Source of the DNA: Bacteroidota bacterium
Lineage (GTDB): Bacteria > Bacteroidota > Bacteroidia > Cytophagales > Cyclobacteriaceae
Assembly: GCA_018266395.1 (NCBI GenBank)
Contig: JAFEAM010000043.1
Coordinates: 1-64,000, forward strand
Length of the DNA: 64,000 bases
Reading direction: 5' to 3'
Shown here: piece after piece, positions 1 to 6,827 of the stretch
How positions within the stretch are numbered: the stretch's first letter is position 1
Layout of the letters: the number at the start of each line of letters is the position of its first letter
The notes under the pieces: generated by a model
Seen by the model: only the letters and a program-made list of their open reading frames with translations
What the model was told of the DNA's origin: nothing
Databases searched by the model: none
Program-made: the position numbers and the translations under genes

Positions 1-29
1 GCAAAGTCATATGCACCAACGTTGCCAGC
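1..29 (+). repeat. attC-like site E0, right arm only
   Basis: The window opens inside an attC-like element. The right arm GTCATATGCAC resembles those of E3 and E9, and the terminal box GTTGCCAGC lies at 21-29. This box opens cassette A and is complementary at 8 of 9 positions to the closing box of cassette A (603-611). The left arm is outside the window. Confidence 0.8.
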
Positions 30-38
30 AATGCGTTT

Positions 39-629
39 ATGAAGATTCAGTTATTTGGACTGACCCTGGTACTTATGACAGCTGTTTTTACTGACAGCTT
101 TTCTTGTATGTGCAACAAGGTCAAGAGCAGGAAAATGTATAAGGATTCTGACTATGTCATTATTGGAAGAGCGTTAAAGAATCTACGCCTAGACTCAATG
201 GTCGGGAAACTTCTTGATCTTAAGGGAGGTGGAGGAAACGTTTCTTTTCAGATTCAAAAAGTCTTGAAAGGAACCATTGACAAGGAAATAGTAGCGATAA
301 TCCAAGACGGAAGTAGCTGTACCATGTGGTTTAAGTTTGGCGATAGTTATTTAATATTTGGAAAGAAAAGGGAACATATGTACGATTCGATGGACGTCTA
401 TTCTCCAATACTTCAGTTTGACTCAACAGATACAATAACTGACGAGGAAATTATTCAAATAAGGAAAACTGAATTTGCAATCGAAAGACAATTTGAGGAT
501 AGTATAAAGGCGGAGTATGGATTAATGATCAATACTGATATGTGCTTGTGTTTCTACGAACAAGGAAAGACGTTCAAGAAATATATGCGCAGAAAACGCA
601 CTGCTGACAACAAAATGTATAAGCCATAG
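39..629 (+). CDS. Cassette A: exported TIMP/NTR-like protein
   Basis: This 196-residue protein has an N-terminal hydrophobic segment (residues 4-20) followed by SCMC at 22-25, so it is probably secreted or lipid-anchored. The pattern after the signal (C-x-C, then DYVIIGRAL, a VSFQIQKVLKG stretch, a SSC near residue 95 and GDSYLIFGK) resembles bacterial TIMP/netrin-like (NTR) domains, which form an OB-like fold. The biochemical role is unknown. A further Cys pair (CLC) lies near residue 170. The start ATG is 10 bp after the preceding GTT box and overlaps the stop of a four-codon ORF (31-42). The last residues are encoded by the left arm of site E1, a common arrangement in integron cassettes. 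Family assignment is tentative. Confidence 0.75.
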   Translation: MKIQLFGLTLVLMTAVFTDSFSCMCNKVKSRKMYKDSDYVIIGRALKNLRLDSMVGKLLDLKGGGGNVSFQIQKVLKGTIDKEIVAIIQDGSSCTMWFKFGDSYLIFGKKREHMYDSMDVYSPILQFDSTDTITDEEIIQIRKTEFAIERQFEDSIKAEYGLMINTDMCLCFYEQGKTFKKYMRRKRTADNKMYKP

Positions 630-772
630 CGGGCGAGTATTGTAAATTTTTAGTTTTATCTTTCATTTCAGAGTATTTGTCGTAGGACAGCTCGCACCAG
701 TCGGCCCTGGCATGCTTCGCATTTACCAGTTCCTCCAATGCCCGCTACGACTTATACATCGACGTTATGGGC
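603..772 (+). repeat. attC-like site E1
   Basis: This is a 170-bp inverted-repeat element. The outer boxes are GCTGACAAC (603-611) and GTTATGGGC (764-772). The next stem is ATGTATAAG (615-623) against CTTATACAT (751-759), with unpaired spacers AAA and CGAC between. After CCA (624-626) against CGA (748-750), the inner stem TAGCGGGC (627-634) pairs with GCCCGCTA (740-747). A626 faces C748, an A-C mismatch that is a G-T wobble on the other strand. The terminal region holds a CTGG...CCAG hairpin, so this is a long-class site. Confidence 0.85.
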
Positions 773-788
773 AACCTTTTTTGGACAG

Positions 789-1679
789 ATGGCAACTGAC
801 GGAATAAAAATAATTGACGGGGACACAGCTCATGATACTTATTGGGGCATCATGGACTTGTACGACAATGACGCGGACTTTGAACTAATCAAAAAAGAAT
901 TTCCACTCATTCAAAATGACTACGCTGATAATTTTGACAACGAAGTTTATGTTACCAGTTGTGGGCTTGCATATTGGGAATTAGGGATTCTTTCAACTAG
1001 CGATCGACAATTTATAAAAGAGGTCGTGGACAAAGGAGCAACGATTGCCGAGTGGACCAAAGAAAATGAGAAAGAAGGAAAAGCGCGAGAGAAGGAACTT
1101 GACAAGTTTTTGAAAAAGATAAGTCAACCAAATAAAAAGGTAAGGGCGAGAAAAAAATACAGAAAGATTGCAAATCTTTACTTTCAGCAAGGTGACATTT
1201 TAACTTTCCAACTTGAAGATAAAAAGTATAGAGCCGTTATTTGCTCTGCAGTTGACCAGTATCGAGGAGCTTGTAATTATTTCTTAACTCCGACAACTTA
1301 CAACGCTATCAAGAAGCCAGATTTTAAGGACATTTTGAATAGCGAGATACTTGGTCGACAAATCAGCGCCAGCTCAGACGAAGCTGGAATCAGATCGGAG
1401 CAACCCGGAATTGAAAAAATTTGGGACTATGTTGGACATGGAAATTTCTTTTTTGGACTAACGATAATGGCTGTTCCACACAAGGATGTAATGACCTTCA
1501 AGGACAATTTTGAAAAGATTGGAACATTGGAAATAATTGAAAGCCTCAAGCAAGTTGGTACACTAAGTTACGAATCCAGTTTTGACCGCTTCCAAAATAT
1601 ATTTGGTGACTTGGACGGACACATTGAAGCATTCAGACTAAAAAGATTCCCGACAAAAGTTATTGCCGACTTGGAGTAA
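789..1679 (+). CDS. Cassette B: hypothetical protein with possible Imm26-like domain
   Basis: This is a 296-residue soluble protein when started at the ATG at 789. An upstream in-frame ATG at 738 lies inside the attC arm and would read through recombination-site sequence, so it is less likely. The N-terminal third is acidic and begins MATDGIKIIDGD; residues about 85-130 are lysine/glutamate rich and probably helical. The following segment FQQGDILTFQLEDKKYRAV is reminiscent of Imm26-type immunity domains (a GD-x-hydrophobic start followed by short strands), but the match is weak. No catalytic motif or signal peptide is visible. It is the only gene in its cassette and has no visible promoter. 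A function cannot be assigned from sequence alone. Confidence 0.75.
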   Translation: MATDGIKIIDGDTAHDTYWGIMDLYDNDADFELIKKEFPLIQNDYADNFDNEVYVTSCGLAYWELGILSTSDRQFIKEVVDKGATIAEWTKENEKEGKAREKELDKFLKKISQPNKKVRARKKYRKIANLYFQQGDILTFQLEDKKYRAVICSAVDQYRGACNYFLTPTTYNAIKKPDFKDILNSEILGRQISASSDEAGIRSEQPGIEKIWDYVGHGNFFFGLTIMAVPHKDVMTFKDNFEKIGTLEIIESLKQVGTLSYESSFDRFQNIFGDLDGHIEAFRLKRFPTKVIADLE

Positions 1680-1688
1680 AAAAAGGCT

Positions 1689-1862
1689 GCCCATAACAAT
1701 GTGCATGAGCCATAGCGGGGTTCAGTGTTACTTGTAGTTTTGTTTCTTAAATTCGTTTCGGTGTGTGGGACAAGTCGCAGCAGGTCGGCCTTGGCATTCC
1801 GCTTCGCTTCATTGCCAAGTCCTCCTAAACCCCGCTACGGCTCATGCACTCACGTTGTAGGC
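1689..1862 (+). repeat. attC-like site E2
   Basis: This is a 174-bp element. The closing box of cassette B, GCCCATAAC (1689-1697), is the exact reverse complement of that cassette's opening box GTTATGGGC (764-772). The stem GTGCATGAG (1701-1709) pairs with CTCATGCAC (1841-1849), and TAGCGGGGTT (1713-1722) with AACCCCGCTA (1828-1837). A1712 faces C1838. The terminal region contains a CTTGGCA...TGCCAAG hairpin (long class) and the conserved GTTTCTTAA and GTGGGACAA blocks. The opening box of cassette C is GTTGTAGGC (1854-1862). Confidence 0.88.
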
Positions 1863-1913
1863 CATTCACTGAGAAAGAGTCGGCACAGGCGACAAACCGA
1901 CACATAAAATTAA

Positions 1914-2561
1914 ATGAGGTACTTCTACATCATTTTGACAATAACTTTGACCAGTTGCCAAGTTAAAACAGATAACAATCCTCAATCGGATAGAGACGAA
2001 GACGACATGATTTTAAGAAAAGAAGCCGAAGTCTTTGGCGACACATTAAAAGTCATTTACGAGTACCACGGGGATACAGTCATTCAACATAGAATTGACC
2101 TAAAAGGAACTACAGACGATGGCTTTGATAACAGTTTTACTGTTAAGTCAGTATGGTCTACTAAGAACACTACTGACCTGACCTGTTCTAAAAAATTAAA
2201 AATAAAGCAGGACGGAGTGCACTTCTATTTTTGCCTTGATGATGTTATTCAGAAGGTTACAAGAGATATTAACACCTCAGACCAGCCTGGACTTGTTGAC
2301 CGGCTAACTATAAATAGGGCTGAGTTAATAAATATCAAAAACGGAGAGGCCGACTCATTATTGACAGAAACCTATTATTTAACATTTGACCTATTGCAGT
2401 CTATAGATTTTTCTATTGTCGACACTAAAACAAAATCAAAGGTTAAAAAAGTAAGGATTGAACAGTACGAGACAGATTTTTCAGGCGGAAATATTTACTA
2501 TTTGATCGGGGACAAAAAAGATACTTTAGCAAGGTTCGATGTAAACGACTGGATAAGGTAA
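1914..2561 (+). CDS. Cassette C: lipoprotein, function unknown
   Basis: This 215-residue protein starts with a short signal peptide and a lipobox-like LTSC (Cys15), so it is probably an outer-membrane or periplasmic lipoprotein. The rest is hydrophilic, with alternating beta-prone stretches (KVIYEYHGDTVI, TYYLTFDLLQSIDF, GNIYYLIGD) resembling small Bacteroidota lipoproteins of DUF4738 type; I cannot confirm that family. No catalytic motif is seen. It lies alone between sites E2 and E3, whose facing boxes (1854-1862 and 2606-2614) are perfectly complementary. The start ATG is 51 bp after the GTT box, and no strong ribosome-binding site is visible. Confidence 0.8.
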   Translation: MRYFYIILTITLTSCQVKTDNNPQSDRDEDDMILRKEAEVFGDTLKVIYEYHGDTVIQHRIDLKGTTDDGFDNSFTVKSVWSTKNTTDLTCSKKLKIKQDGVHFYFCLDDVIQKVTRDINTSDQPGLVDRLTINRAELINIKNGEADSLLTETYYLTFDLLQSIDFSIVDTKTKSKVKKVRIEQYETDFSGGNIYYLIGDKKDTLARFDVNDWIR

Positions 2562-2605
2562 AGACATGACCACGGCCCCGTATGAAGTAACGGTGGACGC
2601 GAACG

Positions 2606-2736
2606 GCCTACAACAATGTGCATATGCCATTGCCGGGGTTCGAGTTAAATCGTAGATTAGTTTCTTAACAACACTCGGCATGTACGAAGCCGTGAACCAG
2701 GTCCCGGCAACGTCATATGCACTGGGCGTTGTGGGC
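2606..2736 (+). repeat. attC-like site E3
   Basis: At 131 bp this is the shortest complete element. Box GCCTACAAC (2606-2614) is the exact complement of GTTGTAGGC (1854-1862). Stem GTGCATATG pairs with CATATGCAC, and TTGCCGGG with CCCGGCAA, with the conserved CCA/CGT step between. The terminal region is closely related to that of E9 but lacks the hairpin insertion. The opening box of cassette D is GTTGTGGGC (2728-2736). Confidence 0.88.
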
Positions 2737-2753
2737 AATAAAAACTTGGGACA

Positions 2754-3110
2754 ATGAAGGCCACATTAATTTTACTACTCATAATTCCGTTCGGACTCTT
2801 TGGACAAGGAACTACTGGGGACAAAGTCAAAATAAAATTAATGGCCGACAAGGAACCACTAAGAGGCGCGACTCTACTAATTAAGGGCTCCAATCCCCCG
2901 CAAGGGACAACCTCGGACATGAATGGAGAAGCTGAGTTACTAATACCACAAGAATTTAAAACAATAGAGATTAGTTTCTTGGGACCGTACACAGCTTTGG
3001 AAATAATAAGGCCAGTAGACTCAATTTACTTTGACATTTCTTCTAAGACCGCGACTTACTACCTGAACAAGAAGAAACTGAAAAGGAAAAAACAAATTGT
3101 AAATAATTGA
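2754..3110 (+). CDS. Cassette D: exported carboxypeptidase-regulatory-like domain protein
   Basis: This is a 118-residue protein with a cleavable-looking signal peptide (hydrophobic residues 4-16, FGLFGQG). The mature part matches the small beta-sandwich of CarboxypepD_reg-like domains: a PLRGATLLIKG strand, a GTTSDMNGEAEL turn (the typical T-D-x-x-G-x-a pattern) and an IEISFLGPY strand. In Bacteroidota this module usually precedes TonB-dependent receptors; here it stands alone, so it is probably a periplasmic or surface binding module. The C-terminus is lysine-rich (KKKLKRKKQ). ATG follows GGGACA directly. The cassette boxes (2728-2736, 3125-3133) are perfectly complementary. Confidence 0.8.
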   Translation: MKATLILLLIIPFGLFGQGTTGDKVKIKLMADKEPLRGATLLIKGSNPPQGTTSDMNGEAELLIPQEFKTIEISFLGPYTALEIIRPVDSIYFDISSKTATYYLNKKKLKRKKQIVNN

Positions 3111-3124
3111 GTAAAGTTTTTACT

Positions 3125-3257
3125 GCCCACAACAAAAGCTATAAAACATATGCTGTATCGTAGGTTCTTAAAGTGCGTGGTGTTAAATTTAGTTAGCAAC
3201 GTGGGACAAAGACGTGCGTACTTAAAGGCATACGTTTTATAGCCAGACGTTGGCTGC
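3125..3257 (+). repeat. attC-like site E4
   Basis: This is a 133-bp element with boxes GCCCACAAC (3125-3133) and GTTGGCTGC (3249-3257). The stem GCTATAAAAC pairs with GTTTTATAGC, a sequence unrelated to the other sites but still palindromic. Structure is therefore kept while sequence changes. The A-C mismatch is retained just inside the stem, before TATGC/GCATA. The terminal region has TTAAATTTAG and the conserved GTGGGACAAAGACG block. Confidence 0.88.
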
Positions 3258-3273
3258 AATGGCCGCAGGACAG

Positions 3274-3966
3274 ATGAGACAACTAATAAACATTGGACTT
3301 TTAATTCTTGTTTCATGCGGGACACCGACTGAGACGGTTGACAATTCATTCTACACAGACAAAAGACTCAGTTTTTACGACCCGTCAGACGAAAATTTTA
3401 GTCTGAATGTCTGGATCAGAAAACCTGAAAACATTCGGACTCTTCACGAGACATTTAAAAAGTACGGTTACAGTAAAATATTTTCAGACTACGACTTGTC
3501 ATCGAATCCGTGCATGATCTGGAGTTACATAAACAAACCATGTTCGACATTGATTGACAGCCTAATTCTAACTTATCCTCAATCAGACAAAGCACCAAAA
3601 TATTATAAAGAGTTTTGGGATAGACGAAAAGCAGAACAGAATGACACGACTGTTTTTGCAGTTCTTAAAGAGGTCAAAGACGAACTGATAAATAAGAACA
3701 AGGTGACGTTCAACGACCGACAAACAAACGACACCATATATAATCTTTTGAGAATAAAGTTTAAGCAACCTGACAATGAAGCAGAGGCAACTGACAACTT
3801 TAACTACTTGCTAAAAGTTGGACTGAATCTTTCCGCGTATAACCTGTTGTACGAGGCAGGTTGGTATGAAAACTTAACGTGGGACAGGGAAAAAATGAAA
3901 CAAAAATTAAAGACGGACACGGTTGACAATTCTTTTTATCCAATAATTGTTGATGACACGAAATGA
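3274..3966 (+). CDS. Cassette E: lipoprotein, function unknown
   Basis: This is a 230-residue protein when started at ATG 3274, giving a compact lipoprotein signal MRQLINIGLLILVSC with Cys at 15. Longer in-frame starts (TTG 3250, ATG 3259) fall in or against the attC arm and would place polar residues before the hydrophobic core. The mature protein is hydrophilic, with paired helical segments (for example residues 130-200), and has no motif that I recognise. It is the only gene of the cassette. The flanking boxes GTTGGCTGC (3249) and GCACCCAAC (3986) are complementary at 8 of 9 positions. Confidence 0.78.
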   Translation: MRQLINIGLLILVSCGTPTETVDNSFYTDKRLSFYDPSDENFSLNVWIRKPENIRTLHETFKKYGYSKIFSDYDLSSNPCMIWSYINKPCSTLIDSLILTYPQSDKAPKYYKEFWDRRKAEQNDTTVFAVLKEVKDELINKNKVTFNDRQTNDTIYNLLRIKFKQPDNEAEATDNFNYLLKVGLNLSAYNLLYEAGWYENLTWDREKMKQKLKTDTVDNSFYPIIVDDTK

Positions 3967-3985
3967 GATTGGTGTAGCGGCCACA

Positions 3986-4118
3986 GCACCCAACAAAATG
4001 TTTGCGCAATGGTGGGGTGATGTGTAAGTTCAAAGGGATATCTTCGTTCAACATTTGGTTACGTGGGACAAATACGTTTTCAAAAGCCCACCACTGCGCA
4101 AACACAAACGTTGTATGC
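3986..4118 (+). repeat. attC-like site E5
   Basis: This is a 133-bp element with boxes GCACCCAAC (3986-3994) and GTTGTATGC (4110-4118). The stem GTTTGCGCA pairs with TGCGCAAAC and the inner stem TGGTGGG with CCCACCA, separated by a single A facing C. Spacers are AAAAT on the left and ACAAAC on the right. The stem sequence differs from all other sites, again conserving structure over sequence. Confidence 0.88.
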
Positions 4119-4140
4119 AATGCCCCTTGGGACAAATTGA

Positions 4141-4560
4141 ATGAGAAAAATATCATCAGACTTTACAGCCCTTCTTAAATATGTTGCTCCGTGGGCAATT
4201 ATTTTCTTCCTGACCTTAGGGACAATTGGGGCATTTGTCGCGGGACAATTTTATCTGGGACTTGGAGTAATAATAGTCGGAGCACCAATCATTGGTTTCA
4301 CTCGGAGTATGTTGATGAATCTTAAGAATGTTTTTCTGGACAAAGAGAATAAAGTAATAATTGTTAAGGGACAGAAAGTTGAATCGATACCTTATGGAGA
4401 TATTAAAGAGATACTGAGACCTTGGACTCCTCCGTACATCGCGACTGTACAACTGACTAAGGACTATTCATTTGGAAGAACATTCACATTTATTCCTGAC
4501 GACCATCCGCTTTTTTGGGACAATTATGACGAGGACTTAAAAACAAAAATTAGGAAGTAA
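4141..4560 (+). CDS. Cassette F: two-helix membrane protein, unknown function
   Basis: This 139-residue protein has two hydrophobic segments near residues 15-35 and 38-58 joined by a short turn. A soluble C-terminal half follows, with short strands (VFLDKENKVIIVKGQKVESIPYGDIK, given here in outline only as alternating hydrophobic residues), as in membrane-anchored PH-like (bPH) proteins. That assignment is tentative. The start ATG directly abuts the stop of a six-codon leader ORF (4120-4140), so coupled translation is possible. The cassette boxes GTTGTATGC (4110) and GCATACAAC (4569) are perfectly complementary. Confidence 0.75.
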   Translation: MRKISSDFTALLKYVAPWAIIFFLTLGTIGAFVAGQFYLGLGVIIVGAPIIGFTRSMLMNLKNVFLDKENKVIIVKGQKVESIPYGDIKEILRPWTPPYIATVQLTKDYSFGRTFTFIPDDHPLFWDNYDEDLKTKIRK

Positions 4561-4568
4561 GGGGCACT

Positions 4569-4704
4569 GCATACAACATTGTGTTTATGCCAGCTGCGGG
4601 TGAAGTGTTAAATTGAGGTCTAGTTTCTTATAATTCATTTCGGCACGTGGGAAAAGACGCAGCTTCGAAAGCCGCAGCCGTCACAAACACGGGCCGTTAT
4701 GCGT
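4569..4704 (+). repeat. attC-like site E6
   Basis: This is a 136-bp element with left box GCATACAAC (4569-4577) and right box GTTATGCGT (4696-4704). Stems are GTGTTTATG against CGTCACAAACAC (imperfect) and GCTGCGG against CCGCAGC, with the CCA/CG step retained. The terminal region carries a clear copy of the conserved core (TAGTTTCTTA, TTCATTTCGG, GTGGGAAAAGACGCAGC). Confidence 0.85.
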
Positions 4705-4732
4705 CAGCTTTTTGGACAAAGAAGACAAACAA

Positions 4733-5233
4733 ATGAAAATTCACGGACTACTGATTTTAATCTTTTTATGGAGCTGCGGACAAAAGACACCAAAGCAGGA
4801 AAGCCCTCTAACTGATTCAGTAACCGCAGACAAAGCGGTAAATAACGAGTCACCAAAAACAAAAATTATTCTGGACAGTTTTACGAACATACCTGATGAG
4901 ATTCAAGGGTGTTCATGCTTCTATTCTGAGTCAGAAGATAAACATCTCAAGAATGAATACTTTTTTGTTGCGGGCTTTGACAGCACAGCTTTCATTTCTA
5001 TTGACAATAAACTATTAAAATTGAAACTGGTTTCAACTGGACGAGAACCCAATACCTTCGGTGACAATGATCATACAGACATTTATAAGACTGACGATTA
5101 TCAAATAACGTTGGACATAAAATACTTGAAACAAGAAGGAGATGAAGGATGGCTAAATACTGGAACCATAACTATTCAAAGTAAAGACGGACTAAAAGAA
5201 ATTATTAAGTTCTATGGAGGTTGCGGATGCTGA
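4733..5233 (+). CDS. Cassette G: cysteine-containing lipoprotein, unknown function
   Basis: This is a 166-residue protein from ATG 4733, with the signal MKIHGLLILIFLWSC and lipobox Cys at 15. A TTG start at 4712 would add seven polar residues and is less plausible. After a Ser/Thr/Lys-rich linker, the mature domain carries GCSC near residue 60 and ends in GGCGC, so there are two closely spaced Cys pairs that could form disulfides or bind metal. No family is recognised. The flanking boxes GTTATGCGT (4696) and ACGCATAAC (5248) are perfectly complementary although they depart from the usual GTTGnnnGC form. This is strong evidence that the unit moved as one cassette. Confidence 0.8.
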   Translation: MKIHGLLILIFLWSCGQKTPKQESPLTDSVTADKAVNNESPKTKIILDSFTNIPDEIQGCSCFYSESEDKHLKNEYFFVAGFDSTAFISIDNKLLKLKLVSTGREPNTFGDNDHTDIYKTDDYQITLDIKYLKQEGDEGWLNTGTITIQSKDGLKEIIKFYGGCGC

Positions 5234-5247
5234 GAATAAAAAGCCGA

Positions 5248-5382
5248 ACGCATAACACAGCGCATATGCCACGTCTGGCGGAAGAGTTGATTTAAAGTTT
5301 TGGTTTTCTAAATTTGTTCTGTGCCGTGGATAAAGACGCAGCTCCGAAAACCAGCCGCGCCATATGCGCGCACGTTGGCAGC
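5248..5382 (+). repeat. attC-like site E7
   Basis: This is a 135-bp element with boxes ACGCATAAC (5248-5256) and GTTGGCAGC (5374-5382). The stem GCGCATATG pairs with CATATGCGC; the inner arm CGTCTGG pairs imperfectly with CCAGCCG, and the CCA step again places A against C. The terminal region holds the conserved core (GTTTTCTAAATTTG, CGTGGATAAAGACGCAGC). Confidence 0.85.
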
Positions 5383-5392
5383 AAGCAGCTAA

Positions 5393-5491
5393 ATGAAAAT
5401 ACTCCTACCAATAATATTTATTTTAATTGTGGCTTGCGACAGCAAACCCAAGACAGCTACGTTGACAGGTGACCTTGTCTTAGCCCCCTAA
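5393..5491 (+). pseudogene. Cassette H: truncated lipoprotein gene
   Basis: ATG at 5393 opens a typical lipoprotein signal, MKILLPIIFILIVAC (Cys15), and the reading frame stops after 32 residues at 5489-5491. From about 5492 the sequence is the interior of an attC-like site (GTAGTTTCAGTTTCTTAA), so the rest of the gene and the left arm of the site appear to have been removed by one deletion. What the intact lipoprotein did cannot be told. Confidence 0.65.
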
Positions 5492-5619
5492 GTAGTTTCA
5501 GTTTCTTAATTTCGTTTCGGTGCATGGGACAGTACGCAGCAGGTCGGCCTTAGCATTCCTAACGTCATTGCTAAGTCCTCCTAAACCCCGCTACGTCATA
5601 TGCACAGAACGTTGAGCGC
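5492..5619 (+). repeat. attC-like site E8, left arm deleted
   Basis: The conserved terminal region (GTTTCTTAATTTCGTTTCGG, then ATGGGACAGTACGCAGC), the CTTAGCA...TGCTAAG hairpin of the long class and a normal right arm CCCCGCTACGTCATATGCAC with box GTTGAGCGC (5611-5619) are present. No left arm with TGCATATGACGTAGCGGGG-type sequence or AAC box occurs upstream, so the folded site cannot form and this copy should be inactive as a recombination partner for excision of cassette H. Confidence 0.8.
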
Positions 5620-5669
5620 AAGGCGGCCGGACAAAAAAGTGACGCCAAAATTTATTAAATTTGGATACT

Positions 5670-5906
5670 ATGAAAACAGGGACATATAATATAGACTTAG
5701 AATTCAGCCAAATCTTGGAGTTGGTCAGACAGCTATCAAAAAAGGAAAAAATCAGACTGTCAAAGGAGCTTGAAAAAGAGATAATTGACGTAAAACTGAC
5801 TTCCTTATTAAAAGCCTTCAAAACGGACGAGCTTGACCAAGCAACAATTGACCAAGAAGTTGAAATTGTAAGAGCTGAATTATATGCCAAGTCAAAAGCC
5901 AAGTAA
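5670..5906 (+). CDS. Cassette I: antitoxin-like protein upstream of a PIN toxin fragment
   Basis: This small acidic-basic helical protein has 78 residues from ATG 5670 (a TTG at 5661 is possible but less likely). It begins MKTGTYNIDLEFSQIL, followed by a long charged helix (VRQLSKKEKIRLSKELEKEI) of the kind seen in antitoxins paired with PIN-domain toxins in Bacteroidota. Its 3' end overlaps the start of a PIN-type toxin reading frame by 23 bp (5884-5906), the usual antitoxin-then-toxin arrangement. It would normally bind and neutralise the toxin and autoregulate the operon. With the toxin truncated, its present role is doubtful. Confidence 0.7.
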   Translation: MKTGTYNIDLEFSQILELVRQLSKKEKIRLSKELEKEIIDVKLTSLLKAFKTDELDQATIDQEVEIVRAELYAKSKAK

Positions 5907-5997
5907 AATAATCATAGACACCAATGTTTGGATTAGCTTCTTAATTGGCAAGACCAGCCGCCAACATTGCATATGCCATTGCCGGGGCTCGAGTTAA
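5884..5997 (+). pseudogene. Cassette I: PIN-domain toxin, truncated by cassette end
   Basis: ATG 5884 opens a frame reading KIIIDTNVWISFLIGK, the signature first strand and catalytic aspartate (D in IDTNV) of PIN-domain ribonuclease toxins. After the TSR following this motif the frame runs into the left arm of site E9 and stops at 5995-5997 after 37 codons. A PIN toxin is usually about 130-150 residues and needs further acidic residues, so this is a dead fragment. The closing box GCCGCCAAC (5957) does not match the opening box GTTGAGCGC (5611), so the original cassette end has been replaced. Confidence 0.8.
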
Positions 5998-6139
5998 ATC
6001 GTAGATTAGTTTCTTAGCAACACTCGGCATGCACGAAGCCGTGGACCAGTCGCGCTTGGCATTCCCCCAACGATAGATTTCGGAATCATTTGCCAGGCGC
6101 TCCTATCCGGCAACGTCATATGCGCTGGGCGTTGTGGGG
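5957..6139 (+). repeat. attC-like site E9
   Basis: At 183 bp this is the longest complete site. Boxes are GCCGCCAAC (5957-5965) and GTTGTGGGG (6131-6139). The stem GCATATG pairs with CATATGC and TTGCCGG with CCGGCAA, with the CCA/CGT step. Its flanks are nearly identical to E3, but a block of about 55 bp forming the hairpin GCGCTTGGCA (6052-6061) against TGCCAGGCGC (6091-6100) is inserted before the right arm. Confidence 0.86.
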
Positions 6140-6200
6140 CATAGACATCGACGAACCAACCGACAAGGAAAATTCGTAAATTCGAAATAAAATCAGTCGC

Positions 6201-6434
6201 ATGGGAACAATACAATTGAAATCCAACCTTCATAAGATGGTTGACAAAATAGAGAATGAAGAACTGCTGCGGACAATCCACGACTTTTTGAAATTGCGCG
6301 AGAATTCTAAAGAAGGCCGAATCTGGAAAAGCCTTACAGAGGAACAAAAAAGAGAAGTATTTCTTGCATACGAAGAATCTGAGGACGACAACAACCTCAT
6401 AAGCTGGGAAGAAGTGAAGAAGAATATGAAATGA
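6201..6434 (+). CDS. Cassette J: antitoxin of a ParE/RelE-type module
   Basis: This 77-residue protein begins MGTIQLKSNLHKMVDKIENE and ends in an acidic stretch (AYEESEDDNNLISWEEVKKN). That layout is typical of the small antitoxins found before RelE/ParE toxins in Bacteroidota: an N-terminal helical dimerisation region and a C-terminal toxin-binding tail. It overlaps the toxin start by four bases (ATGA, 6431-6434), so the two would be translationally coupled. It should neutralise the toxin and repress its own operon. Because the toxin frame is disrupted, the module as sequenced is probably inactive. Confidence 0.8.
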   Translation: MGTIQLKSNLHKMVDKIENEELLRTIHDFLKLRENSKEGRIWKSLTEEQKREVFLAYEESEDDNNLISWEEVKKNMK

Positions 6435-6714
6435 AAGTATTCATCTCGAGAAGAGCCCTTCGCAATTACAACGCTATAAAGAATATATCACTGAACAATT
6501 CGGAGCAAAGACTTCAGAGGCCTTCACTAGAAAGACTGATGAGACCTTTCAACTCCTTGAAGACTTTCCTGAGATGGGCTCAATTGAAAATAATGACATC
6601 CGCGGCTTTCAATTATCCCGGCAATCCAGAATCCTTTATCGGATAAAACGTGAAAAGATCATAATCCTTTCACTCTTTGATGTAAGGCAGAATCCAAAGA
6701 AAAAGCCTAAGTAG
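6431..6714 (+). pseudogene. Cassette J: ParE/RelE-family toxin with a frameshift
   Basis: The frame opened at 6431 reads MKVFISRRALRNYNAIK, a typical RelE/ParE start, then loses homology after codon 17. In the next frame from 6484 it continues YITEQFGAKTSEAF and further on RGFQLSRQSRILYRIKR and IIILSLFDVRQNPKKKPK, the characteristic C-terminal core strands of ParE toxins, ending at TAG 6712-6714. One A missing from a run of A at about 6478-6480 would account for the shift. Repaired, the protein would be about 94 residues, normal for the family. It may be a real inactivating mutation or a homopolymer sequencing error. Confidence 0.8.
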
Positions 6715-6735
6715 CGCGCTTGGCATTCTCCCGAC
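6714..6735 (+). repeat. attC-like site E10, small remnant at the array edge
   Basis: GCGCGCTTGGCATTCTCCCGAC matches the hairpin block of E9 (6050-6070) at about 18 of 22 positions. Neither arm nor box is present. It directly follows the toxin stop codon and marks the right boundary of the array before the ordinary chromosome. The next 90 bp hold a small hairpin (AGAGTC against GACTCT, about 6760-6780) and no gene. Confidence 0.65.
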
Positions 6736-6827
6736 AAGAGTGACAAATATTTCGTCGCAGAGTCCCTGAAGGAGACTCTTAGGGGAAGGCTATTAGTAAA
6801 TTTGGCTATAAAACGAGGAGAATTGCC

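Follow-up and report, generated by a model that had tools for sequence, protein, structure and literature searches.

What kind of element is the row of small genes and long inverted repeats that opens a contig of a Bacteroidota genome, and which enzyme would move it? The DNA analysed, called the window, covers the first 64 kb of a contig, C37 (G000:C37:1-64000), in a genome of 56 contigs, and the contig begins inside the row. Integrons are gene-capture platforms best known for spreading antibiotic resistance. The original prediction, made from the letters of the window, read the row as an integron-type array of gene cassettes moved by an integron integrase (IntI). From the sequence, the window start very probably belongs to a chromosomal cassette array of integron type that has an integrase and a site design of its own. 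Mobility by an integron integrase in the strict sense was not upheld: the integrase adjoining arrays of this kind has no IntI insert, scores below the cut-off of the IntI model TIGR02249 and branches apart from 18 IntI.

The predicted row of same-strand small-gene units with inverted-repeat elements is real. Eight intact hairpin sites lie within 609-6133 on the + strand (AAC...GTT), together with one degenerate site and, at the contig edge, a site that is only half present because the contig starts there. A covariance model (R1) was built from 13 sites of the source genome. In the following list of features, mirrored ends are given as matches between the two ends of one cassette.

1..6740, + strand: distal part of the cassette array, from the contig edge at 1 to a site remnant at 6715-6740; followed by ordinary genes
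1..23, + strand: truncated site, right half present; complementary to the end of cassette 1
21..611, + strand: cassette 1; gene 39-629, 196 amino acids, unknown; mirrored ends 10/11
609-766, + strand: site E1; AAC...GTT and covariance model
764..1697, + strand: cassette 2; gene 789-1679, 296 amino acids, unknown; mirrored ends 11/11
1695-1856, + strand: site E2; AAC...GTT and covariance model; folded
1854..2614, + strand: cassette 3; gene 1914-2561; mirrored ends 10/11
2612-2730, + strand: site E3; AAC...GTT and covariance model
2728..3133, + strand: cassette 4; gene 2754-3110, weak carboxypeptidase-regulatory-like match below cut-off; mirrored ends 11/11
3131-3251, + strand: site E4; AAC...GTT and covariance model
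3249..3994, + strand: cassette 5; gene 3274-3966; mirrored ends 10/11
3992-4112, + strand: site E5; AAC...GTT and covariance model
4110..4577, + strand: cassette 6; gene 4141-4560; mirrored ends 11/11
4575-4698, + strand: site E6; AAC...GTT and covariance model
4696..5256, + strand: cassette 7; gene 4733-5233; ends 10/14, missed by the stricter mirror rule
5254-5376, + strand: site E7; AAC...GTT and covariance model
5459..5613, + strand: degenerate site E8; left end lost, GTT at 5611-5613; model match 5459-5618, 21.6 bits, E 0.009
5611..5965, + strand: decayed unit; VapB15-family antitoxin gene 5661-5906, PIN-like start cut by E9; ends do not mirror (6/14)
5963-6133, + strand: site E9; AAC...GTT and covariance model

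The nine elements first described, E1-E9, are the eight intact sites and the degenerate E8. Their length, given as 131-183 bp, included flanks, and the core triplets are spaced 119-171 nt apart. The count of ten consecutive units holds in that about ten lie in the array with their genes on the site strand, but those after 5376 have decayed and comprise a short stub, the antitoxin gene with the cut-off PIN-like start, and a frame-disrupted toxin-antitoxin-like pair. The A/T-richness was also borne out, with a GC content of 0.40 in the array and 0.50 in the rest of the window.

All eight intact window sites were recovered by the covariance model at 76.8-124 bits. The model also weakly matches the opposite strand of some sites (up to 34 bits), because the sites are near-palindromic. 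Rfam had no match to the sites at E up to 1. When the custom model was run on the genome and its relatives, as had been proposed, at least 25 sites were found in the source genome (49 of 724 candidates scored), the listed ones on C37, C18, C19, C9 and C44. Scattered single copies that do not bound genes, an outcome named beforehand as speaking against cassettes, are not what is seen; the sites bound genes in arrays. Two tyrosine recombinase genes of the source genome lie outside the window, on C18 and C19, and each is directly followed by same-strand cassettes. Similar sequence at the contig ends suggests that C37 may continue the array of C18 or C19.

The cassette reading is supported by the complementarity of cassette ends, by precise breakpoints and by the linkage to an integrase gene. 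The outer left arm of a site does not pair with its own outer right arm, as it would in a plain palindrome; its partner lies across the gene, at the opposite end of the same cassette. Over 106 consecutive pairs the mean is 10.4 of 14 matches, and 72% have at least 10, whereas the outer arms within one site match at 5.2 of 14 positions (148 sites), against 5.1 at random. Complementarity across the gene is what would be left in a unit that had once been a circle closed at the site core. A mirror rule, which asks for GTT and AAC, complementary ends, and A and C at position 8, with a threshold of 10/11, is sufficient by itself to find six cassettes in the window array. Both strands of the remaining 57.2 kb gave none, and neither did the opposite strand of the array or 20 dinucleotide shuffles. 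Twenty loci from the window's class, Bacteroidia, gave 35 pairs on the integrase strand and none opposite; where loci are repetitive (L143, L054) pairs may overlap, and they count as candidates rather than as cassettes. Around family homologues from outside the class, the two neighbourhoods searched (L171, L172) contain no pair. Of ten 20-kb regions around IntI, two (L161, L168) hold three pairs between them, so the rule is not wholly specific there. A crude scan for classical attC sites in these 12 comparator regions detected sites in only one and is unusable as a control.

Duplicated cassettes mark the breakpoints. In one genome (G023), a 1-kb cassette occurs in two arrays about 1 Mb apart with 99.8% identity, which runs from the CGTT behind an unlike neighbouring site to the CGTT that belongs to the cassette's own site. 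A second cassette pair (L052), 95% identical, has CGTT breakpoints on both sides. In a further pair (L091) the CGTT breakpoint is visible on the right only, because the left flanks are alike.

The integrase gene and the sites keep a usual orientation. Thirteen loci combine an integrase with listed sites, all of them downstream and on the integrase strand, none upstream or opposite. Class-wide, 15 of 17 contigs have same-strand downstream sites (p 7e-8 against 1 in 4), counted by eye from listed matches no more than 20 kb apart on the same contig. In a survey of 49 loci at a mirror threshold of 9/11, 19 have a mirror-ended cassette that begins 18-155 nt beyond the integrase stop. By its place in the sequence, this position qualifies as a putative attI-like entry point next to the integrase gene. 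A hairpin stronger than all but 2 of 100 shuffles is found at 6 of the 19 entry sites, and several further loci show an entry palindrome by eye; a palindromic entry site as a rule was dropped, since a strong hairpin is present in 6 of 19 only. In G278:C1:3223705-3286697, listed same-strand sites lie between 18 and 63 kb downstream of the integrase and may form a very long array.

The array-linked integrases form a family of their own. The IntI-specific insert around patch III is missing, with 58-62 amino acids between two motifs in 28 of 33 family rows measured, compared with 100 amino acids between the same motifs in 9 of 18 IntI rows measured, the other IntI rows being unread by the pattern. 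TIGR02249 scores the two array-linked recombinases of the source genome at 209.1 and 206.4 bits, against a cut-off of 265. The search for intI that had been recommended gave 11 matches in the source genome (97.6% complete), all below this cut-off, and a true IntI elsewhere in the genome was dropped as a candidate. In a tree, the family clade (93/95) is separate from the 18 phylum IntI (100/100). The best solved structural relative of the family is 2a3v.

The family integrases carry an extra N-terminal domain. A HARP-like identity was discarded, as 17 N-domain pieces compared with Pfam gave no HARP and weak scattered matches only. A profile search of the Protein Data Bank returned two matches at E about 0.5. 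In the integrase structure comparison, rows covered almost only residues 84-353, and two lambda integrase rows began at residue 4 with a root-mean-square deviation over 10. Carriage of the integrase by plasmids or phages was dropped because none of the 526 plasmid records matched by the C19 integrase, and none of the 45 phage records matched by the query P0006, covered 80% of the protein. A recombinase of Acinetobacter plasmids, called TnpF in one record, shares 50% identity with the C19 integrase over residues 131-368 of the latter.

The site itself has an outer stem (AAC/GTT plus about 13 positions, one never paired) and an inner stem of 17 bp, with an unpaired spacer between the two and a variable loop at the end. 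Among the 13 sites of the genome, 14 of the 17 predicted inner pairs show at least one double change. In the outer stem, positions 1-6 and 9-13 are 88-99% Watson-Crick and position 7 is 58% in 86 well-ended cassettes of 108. Position 8 is paired in 0 of 86 (C.A 80, G.A 5, A.A 1), and its right base is A in all 86. The table omits the 22 cassettes with fewer than nine matches, which raises the pairing shown but not that at position 8. An A.C mismatch stands at one offset of the inner stem in 128 of 151 sites. No extrahelical bulge is conserved: among 151 sites the commonest single-base bulge occurs 13 times, and wobbles or mismatches are seen instead. The C.A and A.C of the top strand are G.T wobbles on the bottom strand, and folding of the arms alone (DNA parameters) gives the bottom strand the greater stability in 81 of 86 cassettes, with a mean of -35.2 vs -32.0 kcal/mol. 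Sites are 81-171 nt long across arrays. Their length is bimodal, with 82 of 151 in the 120s and 62 at 150-179 nt, and the loop of the longer sites contains an additional hairpin-like stretch.

The integron-like R boxes of the original prediction are right as far as the core goes. AAC and GTT are correctly placed in 149 of the 157 model matches considered (scores from about 45 bits upwards, leaving out three matches truncated by contig ends in L060, L092 and L095), and the core NCGTT is present in 150 of the 151 sites used for folding and R-box counts. The R-box consensus is rarely seen: of these 151 sites, RYYYAAC occurs in 13, GTTRRRY in 8 and both in 1. As far as the available text of the sources goes, strand choice in classical attC sites is made mainly via extrahelical bases (PMC2727003), and the IntI insert reads those bases in folded sites (PMC4792948). 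Here the extrahelical bases and the insert are both missing, as might be expected if one mechanism had taken the place of the other.

These parts may work together as follows. The array-linked tyrosine recombinase would act at an entry point shortly behind its own stop codon and on cassettes with one hairpin site each, and its substrate would be a folded single strand. Two sites would recombine within the CGTT core, and the cassette would leave as a circle. In the circle, the two ends of the cassette would meet and make a complete folded site, and the circle would then be reinserted, mostly near the integrase. Of the two strands, the bottom one is probably used, since the mismatches conserved on the top strand (C.A and A.C) appear in it as G.T wobbles.

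Several observations weigh against this account. No site was listed in 52 of 130 integrase-bearing genomes of the class, with 11 candidates scored per genome. The orientation rule has exceptions, with opposite-strand sites in G519:C9 and G681:C109 and two same-strand sites upstream of the integrase in L071; upstream sequence is often short, and the upstream sides of most integrase loci are barely sampled. Mirrored cassettes are absent from seven of the 20 class loci, and in 22 of 108 cassettes the ends match at fewer than 9 of 14 positions. When the whole loop is folded, the bottom strand is favoured in only 70 of 86. Finally, a cassette lacking an open reading frame occurs twice in L018:1-1250 (G000:C19), where the copies agree from CGTT to mid-site and the right half differs, as if the site itself had recombined.

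Among the alternatives, the one that survives best keeps the cassettes and the enzyme but lets the sites recombine as double strands, the hairpins serving otherwise, for example in transcription termination. The enzyme does lack the insert by which, in the part of the text available, IntI reads folded sites (PMC4792948), and the entry site is simple, with no strong hairpin in 13 of 19. However, the double compensatory changes in the inner stem and the outer position kept unpaired in 86 of 86 both point to a structure that is read, and we regard double-strand recombination as unlikely.

It is quite improbable that the window holds an ordinary cluster of attC sites lacking integron integrases (CALIN), in which classical attC cassettes were made, or are still served in trans, by a normal IntI. 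The overall logic and the AAC/GTT triplets are the same, the family is related to IntI through 2a3v, and IntI over the cut-off is present elsewhere in the phylum, in 105 of 395 genomes. Clusters of sites without an integrase also occur here, as in a CALIN: contigs C9 and C44 of the source genome have sites and no listed integrase, and so do 20 of 117 integrase-free genomes of the class. Yet the source genome has no IntI over the cut-off, and only one (G132) of 98 listed genomes of its class has one. The sites are of another design, few of them following the R-box consensus, and other arrays of the same genome adjoin an integrase, which is the insert-less one and not IntI.

A still smaller chance is given to the host Xer recombinases as movers of the cassettes, in the manner of dif-bounded modules, with the adjacent integrase as a passenger. 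The archaeal XerA model also matches the family (220.8 and 212.9 bits, cut-off 220), and XerC/D-like genes are present on C3 and C53. These two genes branch apart from the family (99/96) and are distinct from the array-linked genes, though they might still act in trans. Moreover, dif-like sites are 28 bp long, and the sites here are hairpins of 81-171 nt linked to a dedicated non-Xer integrase gene. The least credible reading, that there are no cassettes and that repeated palindromes (terminators or elements like repetitive extragenic palindromes) were reshuffled by homologous recombination, can draw on near-identical sites such as E3 and E9 (95% over 82 nt) but is already contradicted by outer arms that pair across the gene and not across the site, by breakpoints at one tetranucleotide between unlike neighbouring sites, and by the integrase linkage.

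With moderate confidence, we favour a separate cassette-capture lineage that is common in Bacteroidia and would recombine folded single-stranded sites although its enzyme has no IntI insert. Strand choice would be set by the conserved G.T wobbles of the folded bottom strand, perhaps read by the new N-terminal domain, and the system would be either the insert-less intermediate required by the 'chicken-egg' argument over IntI or an independent invention of the integron. It resembles IntI integrons in its tandem cassettes, in its folded attC-like sites with an AAC/GTT core and, judged by sequence position, in an entry point beside the integrase gene. It differs in the enzyme, which lacks the insert, forms a separate clade and has the extra N-terminal domain. 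It differs also in the site, whose outer stem is much longer than the 7-bp R box and includes the never-paired position, and which has no conserved bulge and mostly departs from the R-box consensus. In addition, integrase and cassettes are read here in the same direction.

The family and its sites are widespread. Many of the genomes surveyed are fragmented. Among 96 relatives, 50 have the integrase at E 1e-40 or better. The covariance model finds sites in 43 of 58 relatives, namely in 28 of 31 with the integrase and 15 of 27 without it (p 0.006; read from listings). Across 247 genomes of the class, the integrase is found in 130 at E 1e-60 and sites at E 0.001 in at least 98 (11 candidates scored per genome). 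Both are present in 78 genomes, the integrase only in 52, sites only in 20 and neither in 97 (p 3e-12).

In the literature searched, which left aside preprints and most subscription journals, no description of such an insert-less integrase and site system was found, and an unseen report is possible. An 'Integron-like' recombinase subgroup was defined by Smyshlyaev et al. in 2021 (PMC8138268), and the available sections describe no cassette arrays or sites for its members. Reviews count Bacteroidota among the integron-bearing phyla (PMC8618304, in the text available), and the accessible part of one survey gives a single complete integron in Bacteroidetes proper, in Salinibacter (PMC9024848). 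In the available text of another report, the 11 taxa for which attC models are built include no Bacteroidota (PMC8352920). To recognise integrons, surveys rely on the IntI insert and on attC models whose training came from other groups. Since the integrase family is found in more than half of the class genomes sampled, a large mobile gene pool may be hidden from current tools. Escudero et al. raised, in the part of their text available, the open question of how the site-reading domain and the folded sites were each selected before the other existed (PMC4792948). Folded sites together with an enzyme that lacks the site-reading domain offer a direct experimental handle on this question.

The cargo is mostly unannotated. 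Eight window cassette genes were scanned, with one NCBIfam match (the VapB15 antitoxin) and two Pfam matches below cut-off. The protein of cassette 2 has 517 homologues at E 1e-5, and the named carriers among the 120 listed are Flavobacterium, Pedobacter, Acetobacteroides and Niabella, at 56-60% identity. Defence cargo was considered and dropped, as PADLOC gave weak matches for 2 of 10 cassette proteins only. At the decayed end of the array, two remnants of toxin-antitoxin-like units lie at 5661-5965 and at 6201-6714, the latter a small-gene pair with a disrupted frame. In a set of 108 cassettes, the longest open reading frame is on the site strand in 84 and on the other strand in 6, and 18 have no open reading frame of 60 amino acids.

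The cassette bodies also show a strand bias in sequence. In the 108 cassettes (101 kb), GGACAA occurs 238 times on the gene strand and 7 times on the other. GAC is preferred over GAT, with a GAC share of 0.65-0.83 on the top strand vs 0.14-0.35 on the bottom strand in 12 of 17 sets; the bias is weaker (0.38-0.54) in G066, G092, G152, G590 and L072. The GAC excess is present in all three frames and is thus frame-independent. Such a bias might reflect a long life as single strands, or a DNA signal. In 56 of 108 cassettes the first GGACA lies no more than 60 nt from the start of the cassette, usually at 16-21 nt and immediately after the outer stem, as in the window cassettes that start at 764, 2728 and 4110.

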